A stretch of 12,859 nucleotides of DNA from an uncultured Variovorax sp. (GTDB lineage Bacteria > Pseudomonadota > Gammaproteobacteria > Burkholderiales > Burkholderiaceae): assembly GCA_946478645.1 (NCBI GenBank), contig CAMLCW010000125.1:1-12859 (forward strand), read 5' to 3'. Position 1 is the stretch's first letter. Every line of letters starts with the position of its first letter. Below the pieces are notes generated by a model. The model was not told the DNA's origin and made no database searches. It was given only the letters and a program-made list of their open reading frames with translations. A program made the translations under genes and the position numbers. Shown piece by piece: positions 3,038 to 12,859 of this stretch.

Positions 3038-3060
3038 GGGGGGAGTTTAGGCGCGAGGGC

Positions 3061-3187
3061 AATCACGCAGAGAAAACGGGGACAGGACGCAGAGGACGCG
3101 AAAGGAATCCATGAAAAAAGATTTCTTGGCTGTTCTTTTGCGTCTTTCGCGAAACCTTCGCGTCCTCTGCGTCCGGAAGTCCGCATT
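3061..3187. repeat. Palindromic interspersed repeat, copy 1 (inverted relative to copy 2)
   Basis: An element of about 127 bp with long terminal inverted repeats. An 18-bp arm starting GGACGCAGAGGACGCG (3085-3102) is the exact reverse complement of 3157-3174, around an AT-rich core. Read backwards it matches 6896-7031 closely over its core and its right end, including GGACTTCCGG and the outer AATGCGG. The left boundary is uncertain. It contains no gene. It fills nearly all of the 161-bp divergent gap between tsaD and nasR, so their promoters must lie in it or beside it. The structure suits a non-autonomous, MITE- or REP-like element. Confidence 0.85.
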
Positions 3188-3198
3188 CAACGGCACAG

Positions 3199-4506
3199 AT
3201 GTTGCGACAGCCGTCCAAGATGAAATCCGGCCTCCGCTTCCTCATCGCCGCGAGAAGGTGCGAAATCGACGAGCTCGACCAGCTCGCGCGCACCAGCGAA
3301 CTGGTCGGCCTGATCGCGCGGCTGGTGCATGCGCTGCAGCGCGAGCGCGGCCTGTCGAACCTGTTCCTCGCGGCCCGCGGCGAGCGCCTGGGCGCCGAGC
3401 GCGACGCGCAGATCGCCGAATGCCTTGCGCTCGAACAGGTGGTGCGCGCGGGATTCGAGCAACTGGTGGCCGAGGCCCGCACCGGCGCCACGGCGGGCAA
3501 CAGCGCGCGCCTCTACAGCCGCATCGCCTGGGTGCTTCCGGGCCTCGACGGCTTGCCCACACTGCGCCGGCGCGTGGGCGATCTCGCGCTCACGCCGGCG
3601 CAGGCCACCGCGGCCTTCGCGAAGCTCGTCGCCGGGCTGCTGGCCGTGGTGTTCGAGGCGGCCGACGGCGCTACCGATCCCGAGATTTCCCGGCTGCTGG
3701 TGGCGATGTTCAATTTCATGCAGGGCAAGGAGTTCGCGGGCCAGGAGCGTGCCTTCGGCGCCGCCACCCTGGCGGTGGGCCGCAGCGGCGCGCAGCAGCA
3801 ACAGCAGCAGCGCCAGCAATGGCAGCACCTGATCGCGTTGCAGGAGCGCTGTTTCCAGGTCTTCGCCGAGTTCTCGTGCGGCGAAGCGCTCGCGCTGTGG
3901 CACCGCAGCGAGGCCGATGCGGCCATGGCCGAGATCGAACGCCTGCGCCGCACCCGCCTGAGCGCGCAGGCGGTATCGGCCGCCGACGCCGACGCACGGC
4001 TGAGCCAGGCCTGGTTCGATTGCTGCTCGCTGCGCATCGACGCGATGAAGGCGGTGGAAGACCGACTCGCGGCCGACCTGCGCGCGCTCTGCGCCCAGAA
4101 GATCGCGCAGGCACACAGCGAGCTGCAGGCCTGCGAGGCGGTGCTCGGCAGCCTTGCGCCGCAAGCCGGCGGCGCGGCTTTTTTCGACGACGCCGACACC
4201 CGTTCCACTGAGCCCGCACCGTACGGCCGGCAGCTCGAGCGGTCGGTGCTCGACATGGTGCAGGAGCAGTCGCTGCGGCTGCAGGCGATGGGCGACGAGC
4301 TCGAGACGGTGCGCGCCTCGCTCAACGAACGCAAGCTGGTCGAGCGGGCCAAGGGCCTGCTGATGGCCCTCCGCCGCATGAGCGAGAACGAAGCCCACAA
4401 GATGCTGCTGCAGACCGCCATGAACCAGAAGCGGCGCCTGGTCGACGTGGCCGAGTCGATGCTCGCGATGGCCGACTACCTGTCCGACGCAGCGCCCCGG
4501 CGTTGA
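3199..4506 (+). CDS. nasR: Nitrate/nitrite-responsive antiterminator, NIT sensor domain + ANTAR domain (NasR-like)
   Basis: A cytoplasmic RNA-binding regulator expected to bind leader RNA of nitrate-assimilation operons when it senses nitrate or nitrite, letting polymerase pass a terminator. It has 435 residues. The NIT domain spans about 25-300 and has the characteristic early helix HALQRERGLSNLFLAARG. The ANTAR domain at about 364-425 includes MGDELETVRASLNERKLVERAKG and the LLMALRRMSENEAHKMLLQ helix-turn typical of this three-helix RNA-binding module. Domain order and length match Klebsiella NasR. It ends about 50 bp before a sigma-54 promoter followed by an ANTAR-type leader and the nrt operon, its obvious target. 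A second in-frame ATG at 3220 could be the true start, and neither start has a good ribosome site. A glutamine-rich stretch (AQQQQQQRQQWQ, about residues 198-209) lies in the sensor domain. A palindromic repeat ends 11 bp before the start. Confidence 0.92.
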   Translation: MLRQPSKMKSGLRFLIAARRCEIDELDQLARTSELVGLIARLVHALQRERGLSNLFLAARGERLGAERDAQIAECLALEQVVRAGFEQLVAEARTGATAGNSARLYSRIAWVLPGLDGLPTLRRRVGDLALTPAQATAAFAKLVAGLLAVVFEAADGATDPEISRLLVAMFNFMQGKEFAGQERAFGAATLAVGRSGAQQQQQQRQQWQHLIALQERCFQVFAEFSCGEALALWHRSEADAAMAEIERLRRTRLSAQAVSAADADARLSQAWFDCCSLRIDAMKAVEDRLAADLRALCAQKIAQAHSELQACEAVLGSLAPQAGGAAFFDDADTRSTEPAPYGRQLERSVLDMVQEQSLRLQAMGDELETVRASLNERKLVERAKGLLMALRRMSENEAHKMLLQTAMNQKRRLVDVAESMLAMADYLSDAAPRR

Positions 4507-4557: not shown

Positions 4558-4573
4558 TGGCACACGACTTGCA
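4558..4573 (+). promoter_or_regulatory. Sigma-54 (-24/-12) promoter of the nrtABD operon
   Basis: TGGCAC (4558-4563) and TTGCA (4569-4573) match the RpoN consensus TGGCACG-N4-TTGCA except at the seventh base. GG and GC are separated by exactly 10 bases, the spacing this sigma factor demands. The predicted transcript start is near 4584, giving a leader of about 165 nt before nrtA. A sigma-54 promoter here implies an activator such as NtrC and expression under nitrogen limitation. Confidence 0.85.
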
Positions 4574-4585
4574 AGACCAGCGCAT

Positions 4586-4627
4586 GGACCTTCGGGTCCG
4601 AGGCTGACGCACCCAATGGCGGGTGCG
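4586..4627 (+). promoter_or_regulatory. ANTAR-type leader RNA hairpins ahead of nrtA
   Basis: Two hairpins lie at the very start of the predicted transcript. The first is GGACC-UUCG-GGUCC (4586-4599). The second, eight bases on, is CGCACCC (4608-4614) paired with GGGUGCG (4621-4627) around the hexaloop AAUGGC. ANTAR proteins recognise hairpins with six-base loops carrying A1 and G4; the second hairpin meets this exactly, while the first, a UUCG tetraloop, does not. The partner protein is most simply NasR, encoded just upstream. Confidence 0.7.
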
Positions 4628-4643
4628 CCCGCCGTCAAAGGAC

Positions 4644-4710
4644 AAAGGCGTCCCCACCCCGAAAGGGCTCGTTCACGAGCGGCCCTTGCGCGGTGCGGAC
4701 GCCTTTTTTT
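4644..4710 (+). terminator. Intrinsic terminator in the nrtA leader (attenuator)
   Basis: A long hairpin is followed by seven Ts (4704-4710) and preceded by AAA. The outer stem GGCGTCC (4647-4653) pairs with GGACGCC (4697-4703), continuing through ACC/GGT. An inner arm has AAGGG (4663-4667) with CCCTT (4683-4687) and CTCG with CGAG around a TTCA loop. It lies between the promoter and the start codon 39 bp downstream, so it must be read through for nrtA to be expressed. It is the expected target of antitermination by the ANTAR protein. Confidence 0.9.
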
Positions 4711-4748
4711 CGTTCTTGCCTTCCATGTTCATCACCGGAGTTCGCCCC

Positions 4749-6895: not shown

Positions 6896-7031
6896 AATAC
6901 GGACTTCCGGACGCAGAGGACGCGAAGGTTCCGCGAAGGACGCAAAAGAACAGCCAAGAAATTTCCTTTTTATGAATTCCTTTCGCGTCCTCTGCGAAAC
7001 CTTCGCGTCCTCTGCGTCCGGTTCCCGCATT
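6896..7031. repeat. Palindromic interspersed repeat, copy 2, inside the nrt operon
   Basis: A 136-bp element between nrtB and nrtD. Its ends form a perfect 24-bp inverted repeat: 6907-6930, starting CCGGACGCAGAGGACG, against 6998-7021. The outer flanks AATACGG (6896-6902) and CCGCATT (7025-7031) are nearly complementary. The centre, AAGAACAGCCAAGAAAT (6947-6963), is shared with copy 1, which lies in opposite orientation. It starts right after the nrtB stop codon. In the nrt mRNA it would fold into a very long hairpin, which could stabilise upstream mRNA or reduce expression of the ATPase. Confidence 0.92.
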
Positions 7032-7877: not shown

Positions 7878-9158
7878 TCAGGACATGATGACCTGCAGGC
7901 TGTGCTCGTACGAGGCCGTGAGGCGCTCGAAGCTGTCGACCAGCGCGTCGCTCGCGCGCACCAGCGTGGCGCGCCCCTCGGGGCTGTCGGCCGCGCGAAC
8001 GCCGCCCACGAGCCGCAGCCACTCATCGCGCGCGCTCGCAAGCGCGGCACGGATCTCGGCCGTTCCGAGCGGCGCGTGCTCCAGCTCGACGAGCGCGGCC
8101 TCGAACTCGTCCATCGTCGGCGCGAGGCGTGCACGCGCGGCCGGCTCGCCCAGCACCGATGCCAGCAGTGCGTCCTTGGCCAGGCGCTGCGCCCGCATGC
8201 GCTGGCGTCCGCAGATGTTGACGATGCGCAGCGCGCGCCGCGCGCCCGAGGCCTCCAGCGCCTCGGTCAGCGCCTCGGCCGCGGCCAGCAGCCGCTCGGC
8301 GCGCGCGTCGATCTCGGCCAGGCCCGGCGCCGTGGCGCGCGCCGACAACGTGGCCGAGAGTCCGGTCCAGGCATGCTGCACCTCGGCCAGCGCCTGCGCG
8401 CCCGTGCCGGCCAAGCCGAGGGCCGCGAGGTGATCGAGGTTCTGCTGCACCCGTTCGGCCGACTGGGTGCGCAGCACGCGCGCGCGCTGCGCCTCGACGC
8501 CGCCGAGCAGCTGCGCGGCCACGCGCACCAGCCGCTGCGACAGCATGCGCAGTTGCCCGGCGCGGTTGATGGCCTCGGCCCACTGCGCCGCCTCGATGAC
8601 CGAGCGCGACACTTCGCCAAGCCGCAGGTTGGCGTGCATCGCGGCACCGCGCAGCAGGCCGAAGGCCTCGTCCTCGCCGATGCCGCGCGCCGACATCAGC
8701 AGGCCCTTGGCGCGGTCGACCCACTTGCGCTCGTCCATGCGGGTGCGGACGTTCTCCAGTTCGGTGCGCAGCGCCGCCTCGCGCGCGAAACGCGCCTGCG
8801 CGCGCACCAGCAGCCCGGGCAGCAAGGCCGCATCGCGCGGTGCCCAGGCGTGCATGCCCAGCGCGACCAGCGCCGCCTGCGCCTCGCCCGGCAGTGGCAC
8901 GCCGGCCACGCCGATTGCGCAGGGTGGCACGCCCTTCCACACCTGCATCACGTCGGCCAGCACCGGCAGCGCCGCCGCGTCGTCGAGCCAGACCAGCACC
9001 TGTTGCGGTGCCAGTGCCTCGGCCTGCTGCACCAGCGTGCGGCAGGTGGTGCGCGCGAGCACGGTCGCGCCAGCATCGGCCAACCCCTGCCGCAGCGGCT
9101 CGGGCAAGGGCGCGGATTCATCCCATTCATTGGGAGCGACGAGAAGAACGGAAGTCAT
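7878..9158 (-). CDS. Second ANTAR regulator: pseudo-receiver + ANTAR + duplicated PilJ/NarX-like sensor segments
   Basis: A 426-residue cytoplasmic protein with an unusual order of parts. Residues 1-125 look like a degenerate response-receiver domain: VLLVAPNEWDES lacks the acidic pair expected after strand 1, though Asp59/Asp60 sit near the usual phosphorylation site. ANTAR occupies about 133-190 (LENVRTRMDERKWVDRAKG, then LLMSARGIGEDEAFGLLR). The remainder is a helical sensor region with two P-box-like motifs, INRAGQLRMLSQRL (197-210) and VNICGRQRMRAQRL (313-326), resembling the nitrate-binding P-box of NarX/NarQ and the PilJ N-terminal domain. NasT has the receiver-ANTAR half and relies on a separate NasS sensor; here the sensor appears fused. 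It is divergent from the narK-nirB unit, whose leader carries an ANTAR hairpin and terminator. The start at 9158 is the only sensible one: the frame continues upstream to about 10163 without family similarity. Confidence 0.88.
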   Translation of the reverse strand: MTSVLLVAPNEWDESAPLPEPLRQGLADAGATVLARTTCRTLVQQAEALAPQQVLVWLDDAAALPVLADVMQVWKGVPPCAIGVAGVPLPGEAQAALVALGMHAWAPRDAALLPGLLVRAQARFAREAALRTELENVRTRMDERKWVDRAKGLLMSARGIGEDEAFGLLRGAAMHANLRLGEVSRSVIEAAQWAEAINRAGQLRMLSQRLVRVAAQLLGGVEAQRARVLRTQSAERVQQNLDHLAALGLAGTGAQALAEVQHAWTGLSATLSARATAPGLAEIDARAERLLAAAEALTEALEASGARRALRIVNICGRQRMRAQRLAKDALLASVLGEPAARARLAPTMDEFEAALVELEHAPLGTAEIRAALASARDEWLRLVGGVRAADSPEGRATLVRASDALVDSFERLTASYEHSLQVIMS

Positions 9159-9210: not shown

Positions 9211-9227
9211 GGGCACGCCTCTTGCAT
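9211..9227 (+). promoter_or_regulatory. Sigma-54 (-24/-12) promoter of the narK-nirB operon
   Basis: GGGCACG (9211-9217), four bases, then TTGCAT (9222-9227) matches TGGCACG-N4-TTGCA at all but the first base. GG (9212-9213) and GC (9224-9225) are exactly 10 bases apart. The predicted start is near 9237, immediately before the ANTAR-type hairpin, giving a leader of about 177 nt. Confidence 0.85.
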
Positions 9228-9237
9228 CAAGCAGGGT

Positions 9238-9282
9238 GCGGTGTAACGAAGCACCGCTTTGGTGAGGCTGCAGGTTCCTGCA
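9238..9282 (+). promoter_or_regulatory. ANTAR-type leader RNA hairpin ahead of the MFS nitrate transporter
   Basis: GCGGUGU (9238-9244) pairs with GCACCGC (9251-9257), closing with one U-G wobble, around the hexaloop AACGAA with A1 and G4 as required by ANTAR proteins. It begins at or just after the predicted transcript start. A second, smaller hairpin, TGCA-N6-TGCA (about 9270-9283), follows but lacks the A1/G4 signature. A further strong stem, CCGGCC/GGCCGG, lies between it and the terminator. Confidence 0.68.
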
Positions 9283-9359
9283 TCCGTTCCGGCCGCACAG
9301 GCCGGGGAGCACCGCCCTGCCGACAGCGCTTGCTGCCGGCCTCCCGTCCCCCAACCCGT

Positions 9360-9398
9360 CCGCGTCGCGGCCCTTGCAGGCCGCGCCCGCGGTTTTTT
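9360..9398 (+). terminator. Intrinsic terminator in the narK-nirB leader (attenuator)
   Basis: The outer stem CCGCG (9360-9364) pairs with CGCGG (9388-9392). The inner stem CGCGGCC (9366-9372) pairs with GGCCGCG (9379-9385) around the loop CTTGCA. Six Ts follow (9393-9398), only 15 bp before the start codon. As in the nrtA leader, transcripts starting at the sigma-54 promoter must pass this terminator to reach the genes. Confidence 0.9.
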
Positions 9399-9413
9399 GC
9401 ATCGTCGAACGCC

Positions 9414-10661
9414 ATGTCGAGTTTCAAGAGCTTCTTGCAGTCCGGCCACAGCCCTACGCTGTTCGCGGCCTTCCTGTACTTCTCGTTCTCCTGCTGCATC
9501 TGGGTGCTCAACGGCGCGATGGCGCCGTTCATCAGCGAGAGCTTCGATCTTTCGCCGGCGCAGAAGGGACTGATGCTGTCGGTGCCGATCATCGCGGGCG
9601 CGCTGATGCGCTTTCCGCTCGGCATCCTGTCGCAGTACATCGGCCGCAAGAAAGCCACGCTGGTCGAGATGGGCCTGATCGCGGTGGCGATGCTGTTCGG
9701 CTTCTTCTTCGTCGAGAGCTTCAACGACCTGCTGGCCATGGGCGTGCTGCTCGGCATTGCGGGCGCGAGCTTCGGCGTCGCGCTGTCGCTCGGCGCGGGC
9801 TGGTTCCCGCCGCGCCACAAGGGCCTCGCGATGGGGCTCGTCGGCGCCGGCAACGTCGGCACCGCGGTGTCGGTGCTGGTGGCACCGCCGCTCGCGCAGT
9901 GGCTCGGCTGGCAGAGCGTGTACGCCGTCGCCGCCGCGGCGATCCTGCTGCCGATGGTGGTGATGGTCGTGTTCGCCAAGGAGCCGCCCGACGTCGACAG
10001 CCATGCGGGCTTTCGCGCGCACATCGCCTGCCTGTTCGAGAAGGACGGCTGGGTCTTCAGCCTGATCTACGGCGTGACCTTCGGCGGCTTCATCGGGCTC
10101 ACCACCTTCCTGCCTTCGTATTACCACGAGCAGTTCGGCGTCAGCAAGGTCGAGGCCGGACAACTCACGATGCTCGCCGCCTTCATGGGCGCGGCGGTGC
10201 GCATCGCCGGCGGCTGGCTCTCCGACCGCTGGGGCGGCGTCAACACGCTCACGGTGGTGCTGCTCGCGGTGGCCGTGGGGCTGGCGCTGGTGGGTGTCTC
10301 GTCGTCGTCGCTGGCGCTCACCACGCTGCTCCTGATCGTGTGCTTTGCCGCGCTGGGCGCGGGCAACGGCGCGCTGTTCCAGCTGGTGCCGCTGCGCTGG
10401 CCCGCGAGCACCGCCGTGGCCGGTTCGATGATCGGCGAGATCGGCGCGCTCGGCGGCGGCCTCGTGCCCAACGCCATGGGCCTGTCGAAGCAGTACCTCG
10501 GCAGCTACACCTGGGGCTTCGTGTTCTTTGCCGCGCTGTCGCTCGTGATGCTCGGCGTCATGCGCGTGATGCAGGTCCGCTGGACCCGCACCTGGGCCGA
10601 AAAAGGCGGCCGCGCGCGCGCCGCCGCCTCGCCCGGCACCTCACTTTTCCCGATTCGCTGA
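9414..10661 (+). CDS. narK: MFS nitrate/nitrite transporter (NarK/NasA family)
   Basis: A 415-residue inner-membrane protein with about 12 hydrophobic segments, importing nitrate (or exchanging nitrate and nitrite). The MFS motif-A-like loop GILSQYIGRKKATL lies near residues 67-80. Glycine-rich helices typical of the nitrate/nitrite porter family occur in both halves: MGLVGAGNVGTAVS (TM5, about 141-154) and LGAGNGALFQLVP with GSMIGEIGALGGGLVPN (TM10-11, about 314-352). The start at 9414 is the only ATG in frame after the leader terminator, but it lacks a clear ribosome site. The long open frame upstream (back to 7743) overlaps the divergent ANTAR gene and is not coding. The NasA-like length and the coupling to nirB 13 bp downstream point to assimilation rather than respiration. 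Confidence 0.93.
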   Translation: MSSFKSFLQSGHSPTLFAAFLYFSFSCCIWVLNGAMAPFISESFDLSPAQKGLMLSVPIIAGALMRFPLGILSQYIGRKKATLVEMGLIAVAMLFGFFFVESFNDLLAMGVLLGIAGASFGVALSLGAGWFPPRHKGLAMGLVGAGNVGTAVSVLVAPPLAQWLGWQSVYAVAAAAILLPMVVMVVFAKEPPDVDSHAGFRAHIACLFEKDGWVFSLIYGVTFGGFIGLTTFLPSYYHEQFGVSKVEAGQLTMLAAFMGAAVRIAGGWLSDRWGGVNTLTVVLLAVAVGLALVGVSSSSLALTTLLLIVCFAALGAGNGALFQLVPLRWPASTAVAGSMIGEIGALGGGLVPNAMGLSKQYLGSYTWGFVFFAALSLVMLGVMRVMQVRWTRTWAEKGGRARAAASPGTSLFPIR

Positions 10662-10674
10662 AAGGACCCACCCG

Positions 10675-12859
10675 ATGAAGAAGCCCAAGCTCGTGATGGT
10701 CGGCAACGGCATGGCCGGCGTGCGCACGCTGGAGGAGCTGTTGAAGCTCGCGCCCGATTTCTATGACATCACCGTCTTCGGTGCCGAGCCGCATCCGAAC
10801 TACAACCGCATCCTGCTGTCGCCGGTGCTCGCGGGCGAGCAGACCGTCGACGAGATCGTGCTGAACAGCTGGGAGTGGTATTCGGACAACGCAATCACGC
10901 TGCACGCCGGCAAGAAGGTGGTCGAGGTCGACCGCGTGAAGCGCATCGTGCGCGCCGTCGATGCCGAGGGGCACGTCACCGAAGCCGCCTACGACCGCCT
11001 GCTGATGTGCACCGGCTCCAATCCGTTCATGCTGCCGGTGCCCGGCAAGGACCTGAAGGGCGTCATCGCCTACCGCGACATCGCCGACACCGACTACATG
11101 ATCGAGACCGCGCGCACGCACAAGAACGCCGTCGTGATCGGCGGCGGGCTGCTCGGGCTTGAAGCCGCCAACGGCCTGATGCTGCGCGGCATGAACGTGA
11201 CCGTGGTGCATGTGATGCCCTGGCTCATGGAGCGCCAGCTCGACGACGTGGCCGGCAAGCTGCTGCAGAAGTCGCTCGAGGACCGTGGCCTCAAGTTCCT
11301 CATGGGCGCACAGACCCAGGAGCTCGTCGGCGGCGAGGATGGGCGCGTCAAGGCGATCCGCTTCAAGGACGGCACCGAAGTGGCGGCCGACCTCGTCGTG
11401 ATGGCCGTGGGCATTCGCCCCAACACCGAGCTGGCCGAAAAGATGCGGCTGCATTGCAACCGCGGCATCGTCGTGACCGACACCATGCAGACCGTGACCG
11501 ACGCGCGCATCTACTCGGTCGGCGAATGCGCGGCGCACCGCGGCATCGCCTACGGCCTGGTGGCGCCGCTGTTCGAGCAGGCCAAGGTCGCGGCCAACCA
11601 CCTGGCGCAGTTCGGCATCGGCCGCTACCTCGGCTCGCTGACCTCGACCAAGCTCAAGGTCACCGGCATCGACCTGTTCTCGGCCGGCGAATTCATGGGC
11701 GGCGAAGGCACCGAGGAGATCGTGATGAGCGACCCCTTCGGCGGCGTCTACAAGAAGCTCGTCATCAAGGACGACAAGCTGGTGGGCGCATGCCTCTACG
11801 GCGACACGGTGGACGGCAGCTGGTACTTCAAGCTGCTGCGCGACGGCCGCAGCGTGGGCGACATCCGCGACAAGCTGATGTTCGGCGAGTCGAACATCGG
11901 CGACACCGGCCACGAGGGCCACAGCAAGGCCGCCAGCATGCCCGACGACGCCGAGGTGTGCGGCTGCAACGGCGTGACCAAGGGCACGATCTGCAAGGCC
12001 ATCAAGGAGAAAGGCCTGTTCACGCTCGACGAGGTCAAGAAGCACACCAAGGCGAGCGCAAGCTGCGGCTCGTGCACCGGGCTGGTCGAGCAGATCCTGA
12101 TGTTCACCGCGGGCGGCGACTACTCGGCCACGCCCAAGAAGAAGGCGGTCTGCGGCTGCACCGACGCGAGCCACCAGGACGTGCGCGACGCCATCCGCAA
12201 GGAACACTGGCTCACGCACCAGGCGGTGTACCGCGGCATGGGCTGGCGCACGCCCGACGGCTGCGCCACCTGCCGCCCGGCGATCAACTACTACCTGATC
12301 TCGACCTGGCCCAAGGAGGCGAAGGACGATCCGCAAAGCCGCTTCATCAACGAGCGCAGCCACGCCAACATCCAGCGCGACGGCACCTATTCGGTGATCC
12401 CGCGCATGTGGGGCGGCCACACCACGCCCGACGAGCTGCGCCGCATCGCGGACGCGGCCGACAAATACAAGATTCCGACCGTCAAGGTCACGGGCGGCCA
12501 GCGCATCGACCTGCTCGGCGTGAAGAAAGAGGACCTCGCCAATGTCTGGAAGGACATCGGCATGCCTTCGGGCTTTGCCTATGCGAAGAGCCTGCGCACG
12601 GTGAAGACCTGCGTGGGCAGCGAATGGTGCCGCTTCGGCACGCAGGATTCCACGCAGATGGGCAAGGACCTGGAGCGCGCGCTCTGGGCGATGTATGCGC
12701 CGCACAAGGTGAAGCTGGCGGTCTCGGGCTGCCCGCGCAACTGCGCCGAGGCGGGCATCAAGGACGTGGGCGTGATCGGCGTCGACTCGGGCTGGGAGCT
12801 CTACGTGGGCGGCAACGGCGGCATCAAGACCGAGGTGGCGCAGTTCCTGGTGAAGGTGA
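10675..12859 (+). CDS. nirB: NADH-dependent assimilatory nitrite reductase, large subunit NirB (3' end missing)
   Basis: Catalyses six-electron reduction of nitrite to ammonium with NAD(P)H in the cytoplasm, together with NirD. 728 codons are present of roughly 820-850; the window ends inside the gene. The start at 10675 has AAAGGA nine bases upstream. Domains in order: FAD-binding VGNGMAGVRTLEEL (about 8-21); NADH-binding VVIGGGLLGLEAAN (about 153-166); a first BFD-type [2Fe-2S] site with Cys429, Cys431, Cys464 and Cys467; a second with Cys493, Cys495, Cys530 and Cys533; a ferredoxin-like nitrite/sulfite reductase half domain (about 555-620); and the siroheme/[4Fe-4S] ligands Cys646, Cys652, Cys686 and Cys690 in TCVGSEWC and SGCPRNC. 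All cofactor cysteines visible in the window are intact. It is co-transcribed with the MFS transporter. A long minus-strand open frame across it is only a GC-rich shadow. Confidence 0.97.
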   Translation, partial: MKKPKLVMVGNGMAGVRTLEELLKLAPDFYDITVFGAEPHPNYNRILLSPVLAGEQTVDEIVLNSWEWYSDNAITLHAGKKVVEVDRVKRIVRAVDAEGHVTEAAYDRLLMCTGSNPFMLPVPGKDLKGVIAYRDIADTDYMIETARTHKNAVVIGGGLLGLEAANGLMLRGMNVTVVHVMPWLMERQLDDVAGKLLQKSLEDRGLKFLMGAQTQELVGGEDGRVKAIRFKDGTEVAADLVVMAVGIRPNTELAEKMRLHCNRGIVVTDTMQTVTDARIYSVGECAAHRGIAYGLVAPLFEQAKVAANHLAQFGIGRYLGSLTSTKLKVTGIDLFSAGEFMGGEGTEEIVMSDPFGGVYKKLVIKDDKLVGACLYGDTVDGSWYFKLLRDGRSVGDIRDKLMFGESNIGDTGHEGHSKAASMPDDAEVCGCNGVTKGTICKAIKEKGLFTLDEVKKHTKASASCGSCTGLVEQILMFTAGGDYSATPKKKAVCGCTDASHQDVRDAIRKEHWLTHQAVYRGMGWRTPDGCATCRPAINYYLISTWPKEAKDDPQSRFINERSHANIQRDGTYSVIPRMWGGHTTPDELRRIADAADKYKIPTVKVTGGQRIDLLGVKKEDLANVWKDIGMPSGFAYAKSLRTVKTCVGSEWCRFGTQDSTQMGKDLERALWAMYAPHKVKLAVSGCPRNCAEAGIKDVGVIGVDSGWELYVGGNGGIKTEVAQFLVKV

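Follow-up and report, generated by a model that had tools for sequence, protein, structure and literature searches.

A candidate two-input leader with a sigma-54 site and a single ANTAR-type hexaloop hairpin ahead of narK-nirB in Variovorax

We analysed a 12,859-nucleotide stretch of DNA from an uncultured Variovorax sp. (contig CAMLCW010000125.1, hereafter the window), focusing on the 5' leader of its narK-nirB genes. The first gene under this leader is an open reading frame for a narK-type nitrate/nitrite transporter (9414-10661, + strand), a name that we take from a first-pass annotation of the window rather than from family profile matches. It is followed by nirB, the nitrite reductase large subunit (10675-12858, +, TIGR02374), which runs past the window end. 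Divergent from narK lies a regulator gene (7881-9158, - strand) whose product matches Pfam ANTAR and PilJ (PF13675), referred to here as ANTAR-PilJ. The first-pass annotation had described a GG-N10-GC promoter, a 7-bp AACGAA hairpin and a terminator with six Ts before narK, and all three were recovered. The sigma-54-type promoter (9211-9226, +) reads GGGCACGCCTCTTGCA, one mismatch from TGGCAYNNNNNYTGCA, with exact GG-N10-GC spacing of the -24/-12 type (GG 9212-9213, GC 9224-9225), and is found at 12/12 Variovorax-type loci. Transcription would start near 9237. The hairpin, P1 (9238-9257, +), is located at about +1 as GCGGUGU-AACGAA-GCACCGC, reaches 7 bp only by including the closing U.G, and is present in the minimum free energy (MFE) fold of the whole leader. 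Its loop (9245-9250) is six nucleotides long with A1 and G4, as in ANTAR-target RNAs. The intrinsic terminator (9360-9398, +) has a GC-rich 12-bp stem (9360-9392) and then T6 (9393-9398), ending 15 bp before the narK ATG. The lengths given earlier for the nrtA leader and for this one, about 165 and 177 nt, agree with the sequence if +1 is set 12 bases after the GC. The upstream stretch had been ended at 9413; taken as the narK start this is one base short, as the gene starts at 9414.

To compare narK leaders across relatives, 299 family genomes were searched, yielding 93 with a close narK and, with additional loci, 105 upstream regions in all, of which 103 reach 300 nt; the incomplete narK fragments in G001 and G313 were excluded. 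A leader was counted as beside an ANTAR-PilJ gene when a divergent one lay within 900 bp, and as having a hexaloop hairpin when a stem of at least 6 pairs enclosed an (A/G)NNGNN loop behind a closing C-G or U-G pair. The hairpin was present in 41/46 narK leaders beside an ANTAR-PilJ gene and in 14/57 elsewhere (14/54 without the repeats L023/L046, L055/L078 and L055b/L078b, all lacking a neighbour and none with the motif); two leaders under 300 nt (L043b, L084) are omitted from this comparison and two Methylobacterium loci are kept. Shuffled leaders satisfied the same rule in 7% (beside the gene) and 5% (elsewhere) of cases, and 2.8% of shuffled leaders beside the gene held such a hairpin with at least 7 bp. 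A loop-anchored test, which uses loop letters and sigma-54 distance only and is kinder to the hypothesis than a test on MFE folds, found the anchor 18-23 nt past the GC in 42/46 leaders beside the gene, leaving out L107, L114 and L118 for lack of a sigma-54 match and L098 for lack of an anchor. Over 31 distinct sequences, P1 stem pairs 2-7 were paired in 174/186 cells as compared to 51-110 when the arms were slid by 1-2 bases. Of the 31 sequences, 21 have a C-G closing pair and 10 a U-G pair, the anchor requiring one of them. Stem letters covaried between genera (L089 GCAACGC/GCGTTGC and L115 GCCTGC/GCAGGC versus GCGGTGT/GCACCGC in the window). Inside the Variovorax clade P1 was invariant save one cell, and it and the following linker hairpin varied too little for covariation.

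The hairpin also moved with the ANTAR-PilJ gene. Where the narK leader had no such neighbour, 10/51 genomes held a long ANTAR-PilJ match at another place, and 10/10 of the divergent regions there contained a sigma-54 site followed 18-25 nt on by an A/G1-G4 hexaloop hairpin. At least 7 of these 10 relocated leaders precede a nirB-like start by eye, with L108 confirmed by tblastn. A second hexaloop 44-47 nt further was found by scan in 6/10 and, with a mismatch by eye, in L121; there was none in L125-L127 (L127 and L115 are one locus). In 2/7 Variovorax genomes the window-type leader is present in a second copy. One, L128 (V. paradoxus DS1452), stands by eye ahead of a nirB-like start; the other, L129, runs into the contig end before a gene is reached. 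Both retain P1 (MFE) and, by eye, the linker hairpin with altered letters, which is clear in the MFE fold of L129 only. Two of four P1-pattern matches in genome G319 (L130, L131) were not leader-like by eye and were set aside. The window holds a second ANTAR gene, a NIT-ANTAR (NasR-like) gene found by domain scan (3199-4506, +) that adjoins the nrtA leader. We surveyed 36 genomes with an ANTAR-PilJ neighbour for NIT domains, G140 (L032) and the named Variovorax records lying outside this set. Matches as strong and as short as the NIT-ANTAR protein occurred in 5/36, and 12 further genomes had weaker matches, at E-values no better than 7e-14, in reading frames roughly 650-740 aa long. As the leader moves with the gene and matches of NIT-ANTAR strength are rare, the likely partner is ANTAR-PilJ, and on these sequence comparisons the narK leader is very probably its cognate RNA target. 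The annotation had named an ANTAR-type target, which stands, and had left the partner as either ANTAR protein, where ANTAR-PilJ now seems the likelier.

Together these data suggest that the narK leader may be a two-input 5' leader of a one-hexaloop lineage, with sigma-54 initiation and control of terminator read-through by ANTAR-PilJ at P1, a reading to which we give a probability of roughly 0.6. Under nitrogen limitation, sigma-54 RNA polymerase, probably with NtrC, would initiate near 9237. The first ~20 nt would fold into P1, whose hexaloop is by comparison a candidate ANTAR-PilJ binding site. The sensor fold and P-box motifs suggest that the protein would bind RNA once nitrate or nitrite occupies its NarX/NIT-type domains. 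Bound protein would let polymerase through 9360-9398 so that narK-nirB is transcribed, and polymerase would stop there when it is unbound. We read this arrangement as a modified form of the nasF/NasR design known from Klebsiella.

Several results weigh against this reading. Selection of NasR ligands in vitro (SELEX, systematic evolution of ligands by exponential enrichment) gave a C:G loop-closing pair, with both hairpins binding NasR at ~1 uM and P2 alone at ~12 uM (PMC7496416), and the window has U.G. The fold energy of the whole narK leader is ordinary (z -1.45, 17/200 shuffles as good), in contrast to the nrtA leader (z -3.51, 0/200). When only the first 55 nt were folded, the MFE in the window preferred an alternative hairpin, CGAAGC-ACC-GCTTTG, over P1. 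By this MFE-only test, which scores loops with an extra inner pair as misses, the first hairpin was an A/G1-G4 hexaloop in 20/46 leaders beside ANTAR-PilJ and another hairpin in 23 (the window included), with 3 lacking a sigma-54 match; elsewhere the test gave 3/57 hexaloops, 16 other hairpins and 38 leaders without a sigma-54 match. The ANTAR part of the ANTAR-PilJ structure model is of low confidence. P1 ends at 9257, 102 nt before the terminator stem (9360), so that the two do not overlap, and folding of partial transcripts found no conserved antiterminator pairing. A generic terminator scan did not report the 9360-9398 terminator. L018, L024 and L030 have ATTTCG (three Ts) in place of the T-run, and among 11 other one-hexaloop leaders 6 scored as terminator-like and 5 did not, the elements of L091 and L099 sitting at P1 itself. 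Lastly, in 47 leaders (the 46 beside ANTAR-PilJ and L035) no second hexaloop anchor was found in 24, including all 12 of Variovorax type, and no second A1/G4 hexaloop was found in the window leader even with laxer stems.

The last point concerns the architecture of the leader, as canonical ANTAR targets are described with dual A1/G4 hexaloops of which the second overlaps the terminator (PMC3369931, PMC3369936). A second A/G1-G4 hexaloop (P2) lay 43-46 nt after the first in 16/47 narK leaders, with 5-6 of 6 stem pairs, and L038, L040, L074 and L091 had the second anchor with at most 4 of 6 pairs. Outside Variovorax, 16 leaders show only the first hexaloop, and no second anchor was found in L035, L037, L051, L056, L065, L067, L089, L097, L099, L101, L115 and L118; the P1 assigned to L118 is doubtful, and the rule gave no P1 for L039, L044 and L098. 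The window leader is not a complete ANTAR motif, as the second A1/G4 hexaloop is absent there and throughout the clade (0/12). A weak second hexaloop, GGTGAA, in L020, L025 and L028 was rejected since it overlaps P1. On the ANTAR-PilJ protein tree (47 proteins) the single and double states were separated by 1 change over 39 labelled rows. The other 8/47 rows are unlabelled, and the number of changes rises to 2 if four of them are taken as single and to 3 if all eight are; the double label includes L108, a nirB leader. Three further hairpins follow P1 in the window. These are the linker hairpin TGCAG-GTTC-CTGCA (9269-9282, +), with a stem invariant in 12 rows; hairpin B (9289-9305, +), near the P2 place of two-hexaloop leaders and lacking an A1/G4 hexaloop; and hairpin C (9319-9340, +). 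In B and C, two pairs each were changed on both sides. One alternative is that the leader is a canonical two-hairpin target in which B is a diverged P2 read without the A1/G4 letters. The B loop begins 50 nt beyond the P1 loop, as compared to 43-46 nt in two-hexaloop leaders, with the linker hairpin in between, but its length varies, the P2 anchor is missing in 12/12 rows and only L022 has an A1/G4 alternative overlapping B. We consider this alternative unlikely. Walshe et al. 2022 reduced the minimal ANTAR site to a single hexaloop, bound by an ANTAR dimer, and asked for work on how widely such sites are used (PMC8934654). The window leader matches the sequence part of that description. Whether one hexaloop would be enough for function we put at even odds. 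The layout as such is of a known kind, and what sets it apart here is the one-hexaloop lineage and its ANTAR-PilJ partner.

The terminator was assessed by scoring. Something terminator-like was held by 62/100 shuffles, and 3/100 reached the score of the window terminator. Terminator-like elements were scored in 9/12 Variovorax narK leaders, in 22/26 nrtA leaders and in 5/18 leaders of the two-hexaloop type, four of the five at the sigma-54 site itself. Over the 12 clade rows one inner stem pair was G-C in 6, A-U in 5 and G-U in 1, and a second was C-G in ten, U-A in one and U-G in one; the window's own stem stands in a slightly different register within this alignment. Pairing of an arm of hairpin B with the 5' arm of the terminator was possible in the window and was discarded as unsupported by the alignment. 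The terminator noted earlier is good in the window, but its T-run is weak in 3/12 relatives. Eight leaders of the two-hexaloop kind (L033, L037, L100, L106, L107, L113, L114, L117; the second loop of L037 has 7 nt) have no U-run terminator and, judged in part by eye, carry CTCC after P2 and GGAG before a start codon, which suggests translation control instead of termination. These leaders favour a second alternative, that P1 binding controls translation or mRNA stability in the window too and that the terminator-like hairpin is incidental. The T-run lost in three relatives, the low score of the two-hexaloop type and the ANTAR RNAs described at ribosome-binding sites in actinobacteria (PMC8164766) are in keeping with it. 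We nevertheless think it improbable, as the terminator stem pairing is retained through changes on both sides in the clade and 9/12 leaders keep a terminator-like end. That narK control would be exerted at the terminator seems to us, from the sequence, slightly favoured. In L099, seven Ts directly follow P1 about 120-100 nt before narK, and there the ANTAR hairpin could itself be a terminator.

The ANTAR-PilJ protein consists of a receiver-like (pseudo-receiver) part, ANTAR at 136-188 and a NarX/NIT-type sensor in tandem, in which two P-box-like motifs are preserved. Pfam gives PilJ and not NIT, so that the protein lacks the NIT domain joined to ANTAR by which NasR-like one-component regulators are recognised, although its fold matches NasR. 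In the structure comparison NarQ scored 13.7, and unrelated helical bundles came near (talin 13.3, vinculin 12-13). Among the 120 matches listed for its relatives, the readable organism names were Variovorax. A third alternative holds that the NIT-ANTAR protein (3199-4506) governs both leaders and that ANTAR-PilJ is dispensable. NIT-ANTAR is encoded in the same Variovorax cluster, both leaders have an A1/G4 hexaloop and some NIT match was found in 17/36 genomes, but the rarity of matches of its own strength (5/36, the other 12 being weaker) and the movement of the leader with the ANTAR-PilJ gene make this very unlikely.

Only two sigma-54 matches with at most one mismatch were found in the window, the 9211 site and TGGCACACGACTTGCA at 4558. 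By chance 1.15 are expected, and 64/200 shuffles held at least 2; the match alone is unremarkable, so its weight rests on position and conservation. A candidate NtrC dyad, GCACC-N6-GGTGC at 8996-9011, lies within the ANTAR-PilJ gene and is suggestive only, chance alone predicting 0.10 such matches; it is also present in L018, L021, L022 and L029, and coding constraint could explain its conservation. Past +1, the P1 3' arm and a following GGTG form GCACC-N5-GGTGA (9251-9265, +), which resembles the NtrC consensus and is invariant in 12/12 clade rows. This GGTG could belong to a competing CACC-N5-GGTG hairpin or to an NtrC-like DNA dyad. By a loose test, a competing hairpin after P1 was found in 12/12 Variovorax, 6/11 other one-hexaloop and 6/19 two-hexaloop-type leaders. 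That the conserved stretch is mainly such a DNA site, with the hairpin a by-product, is hardly probable. CACC-N5-GGTG does occur in 12/12 Variovorax leaders, L035, L051, L065 and the second copies L128 and L129, but 19 two-hexaloop-type leaders that retain P1 showed no exact GGTG partner, and loop letters outside the dyad are conserved.

The nrtA leader (4558-4748, +) has a sigma-54 site, a UUCG hairpin in the P1 place, a P2 hexaloop AATGGC and a terminator, and downstream of the NIT-ANTAR gene lie nrtA, nrtB and a nitrate-type ATP-binding cassette (ABC) ATPase gene. Among 26 nrtA leaders examined, 23 had the terminator head and all 23 of these the P2 hexaloop, which is mostly AACGGC, with a sigma-54-type site (by eye in most) and a terminator of GGACAAAGGCGTCC...GGACGCC-T type. 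The terminator head begins 24-37 nt after the P2 loop, and P2 therefore appears not to overlap the terminator. A P1 hexaloop 26-32 nt before P2 was found at 10/15 other nrtA loci (L077 being doubtful) and at 0/8 Variovorax loci, where the P1 hairpin bears UUCG or another loop by eye. The Variovorax nrtA leader keeps only P2, the mirror image of the P1-only narK leader. Both of the separate sigma-54/ANTAR-type leaders reported by the first-pass annotation recur across genera, and the layout that it saw before nrtA and narK does recur, but it overlooked that each has only one A1/G4 hexaloop. We tentatively suggest, at somewhat less than even odds, a stable ANTAR lineage that acts through a single recruitment hairpin at the 5' end and influences a terminator about 100 nt downstream with no P2 antiterminator, the two Variovorax leaders having kept opposite P1-P2 halves. 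The clade supplies naturally occurring one-hexaloop leaders that can be set against two-hexaloop leaders belonging to the same protein family, together with a P2-only leader in the cluster, which makes the model of a recruitment hairpin versus an antitermination hairpin directly testable. A few narK genes have an nrtA-like leader (L058, L093 and, by eye, L076, L081 and L082).

Related systems are known. The Klebsiella nas genes require Ntr and NasR (PMC5424462), and Klebsiella oxytoca nasF/NasR shares with the window nitrate-assimilation genes, Ntr together with a nitrate-responsive ANTAR antiterminator, an A1/G4 hexaloop and a downstream terminator (PMC3369936, PMC5424462). In contrast to that NIT-ANTAR system, the leader here has a receiver-like-ANTAR-PilJ neighbour, one hexaloop, U.G closing and no P2/terminator overlap. 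Enterococcus faecalis eut/EutV is alike in hexaloop recognition, and its RNA-contact residues are largely preserved in ANTAR-PilJ; unlike here, eut has two hexaloops, the second overlapping the terminator, and EutV depends on a separate kinase for activation and lacks a sensor domain. The nasA leaders of Paracoccus and Azotobacter are likewise ANTAR-controlled nitrate-assimilation leaders, but their NasT is governed by a separate nitrate binder, NasS, whereas sensor and ANTAR are here in one protein. As compared to NarX/NarQ, McpN and PilJ, the sensor domain is duplicated in one chain, with no membrane helices predicted by eye and an RNA-binding domain attached. Such a NarX-like nitrate sensor fused to an RNA-binding domain may be a common nitrate switch among bacteria of this family. 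Genes for nitrate transport and nitrite reductase figure in a sigma-54 survey (PMC12316311), and matches upstream of nitrate/nitrite transporter and nitrite reductase genes are reported by Ramesh et al. 2012. No description of an ANTAR-PilJ protein with such leaders was found among the papers listed by the literature searches, supplements and most subscription papers lying outside the search, and PMC7074706 proved unrelated.

An Rfam scan of the window gave no match at gathering scores, and the single match near the leader (E-value 4.8) was dismissed as chance. No Shine-Dalgarno sequence was seen by eye before the narK ATG (9399-9413), where letters like TTGAACGCCATG are conserved in the Variovorax clade. 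Positions 2-34 resemble the Illumina TruSeq adapter, and we take them to be adapter sequence at the contig end. Flanking the nrtA-nrtB region, 3060-3180 and 6900-7020 hold stretches (ggacgcagaggacgcgaagg...) that are similar by eye, in opposite orientation, and are possibly a repeated intergenic element.
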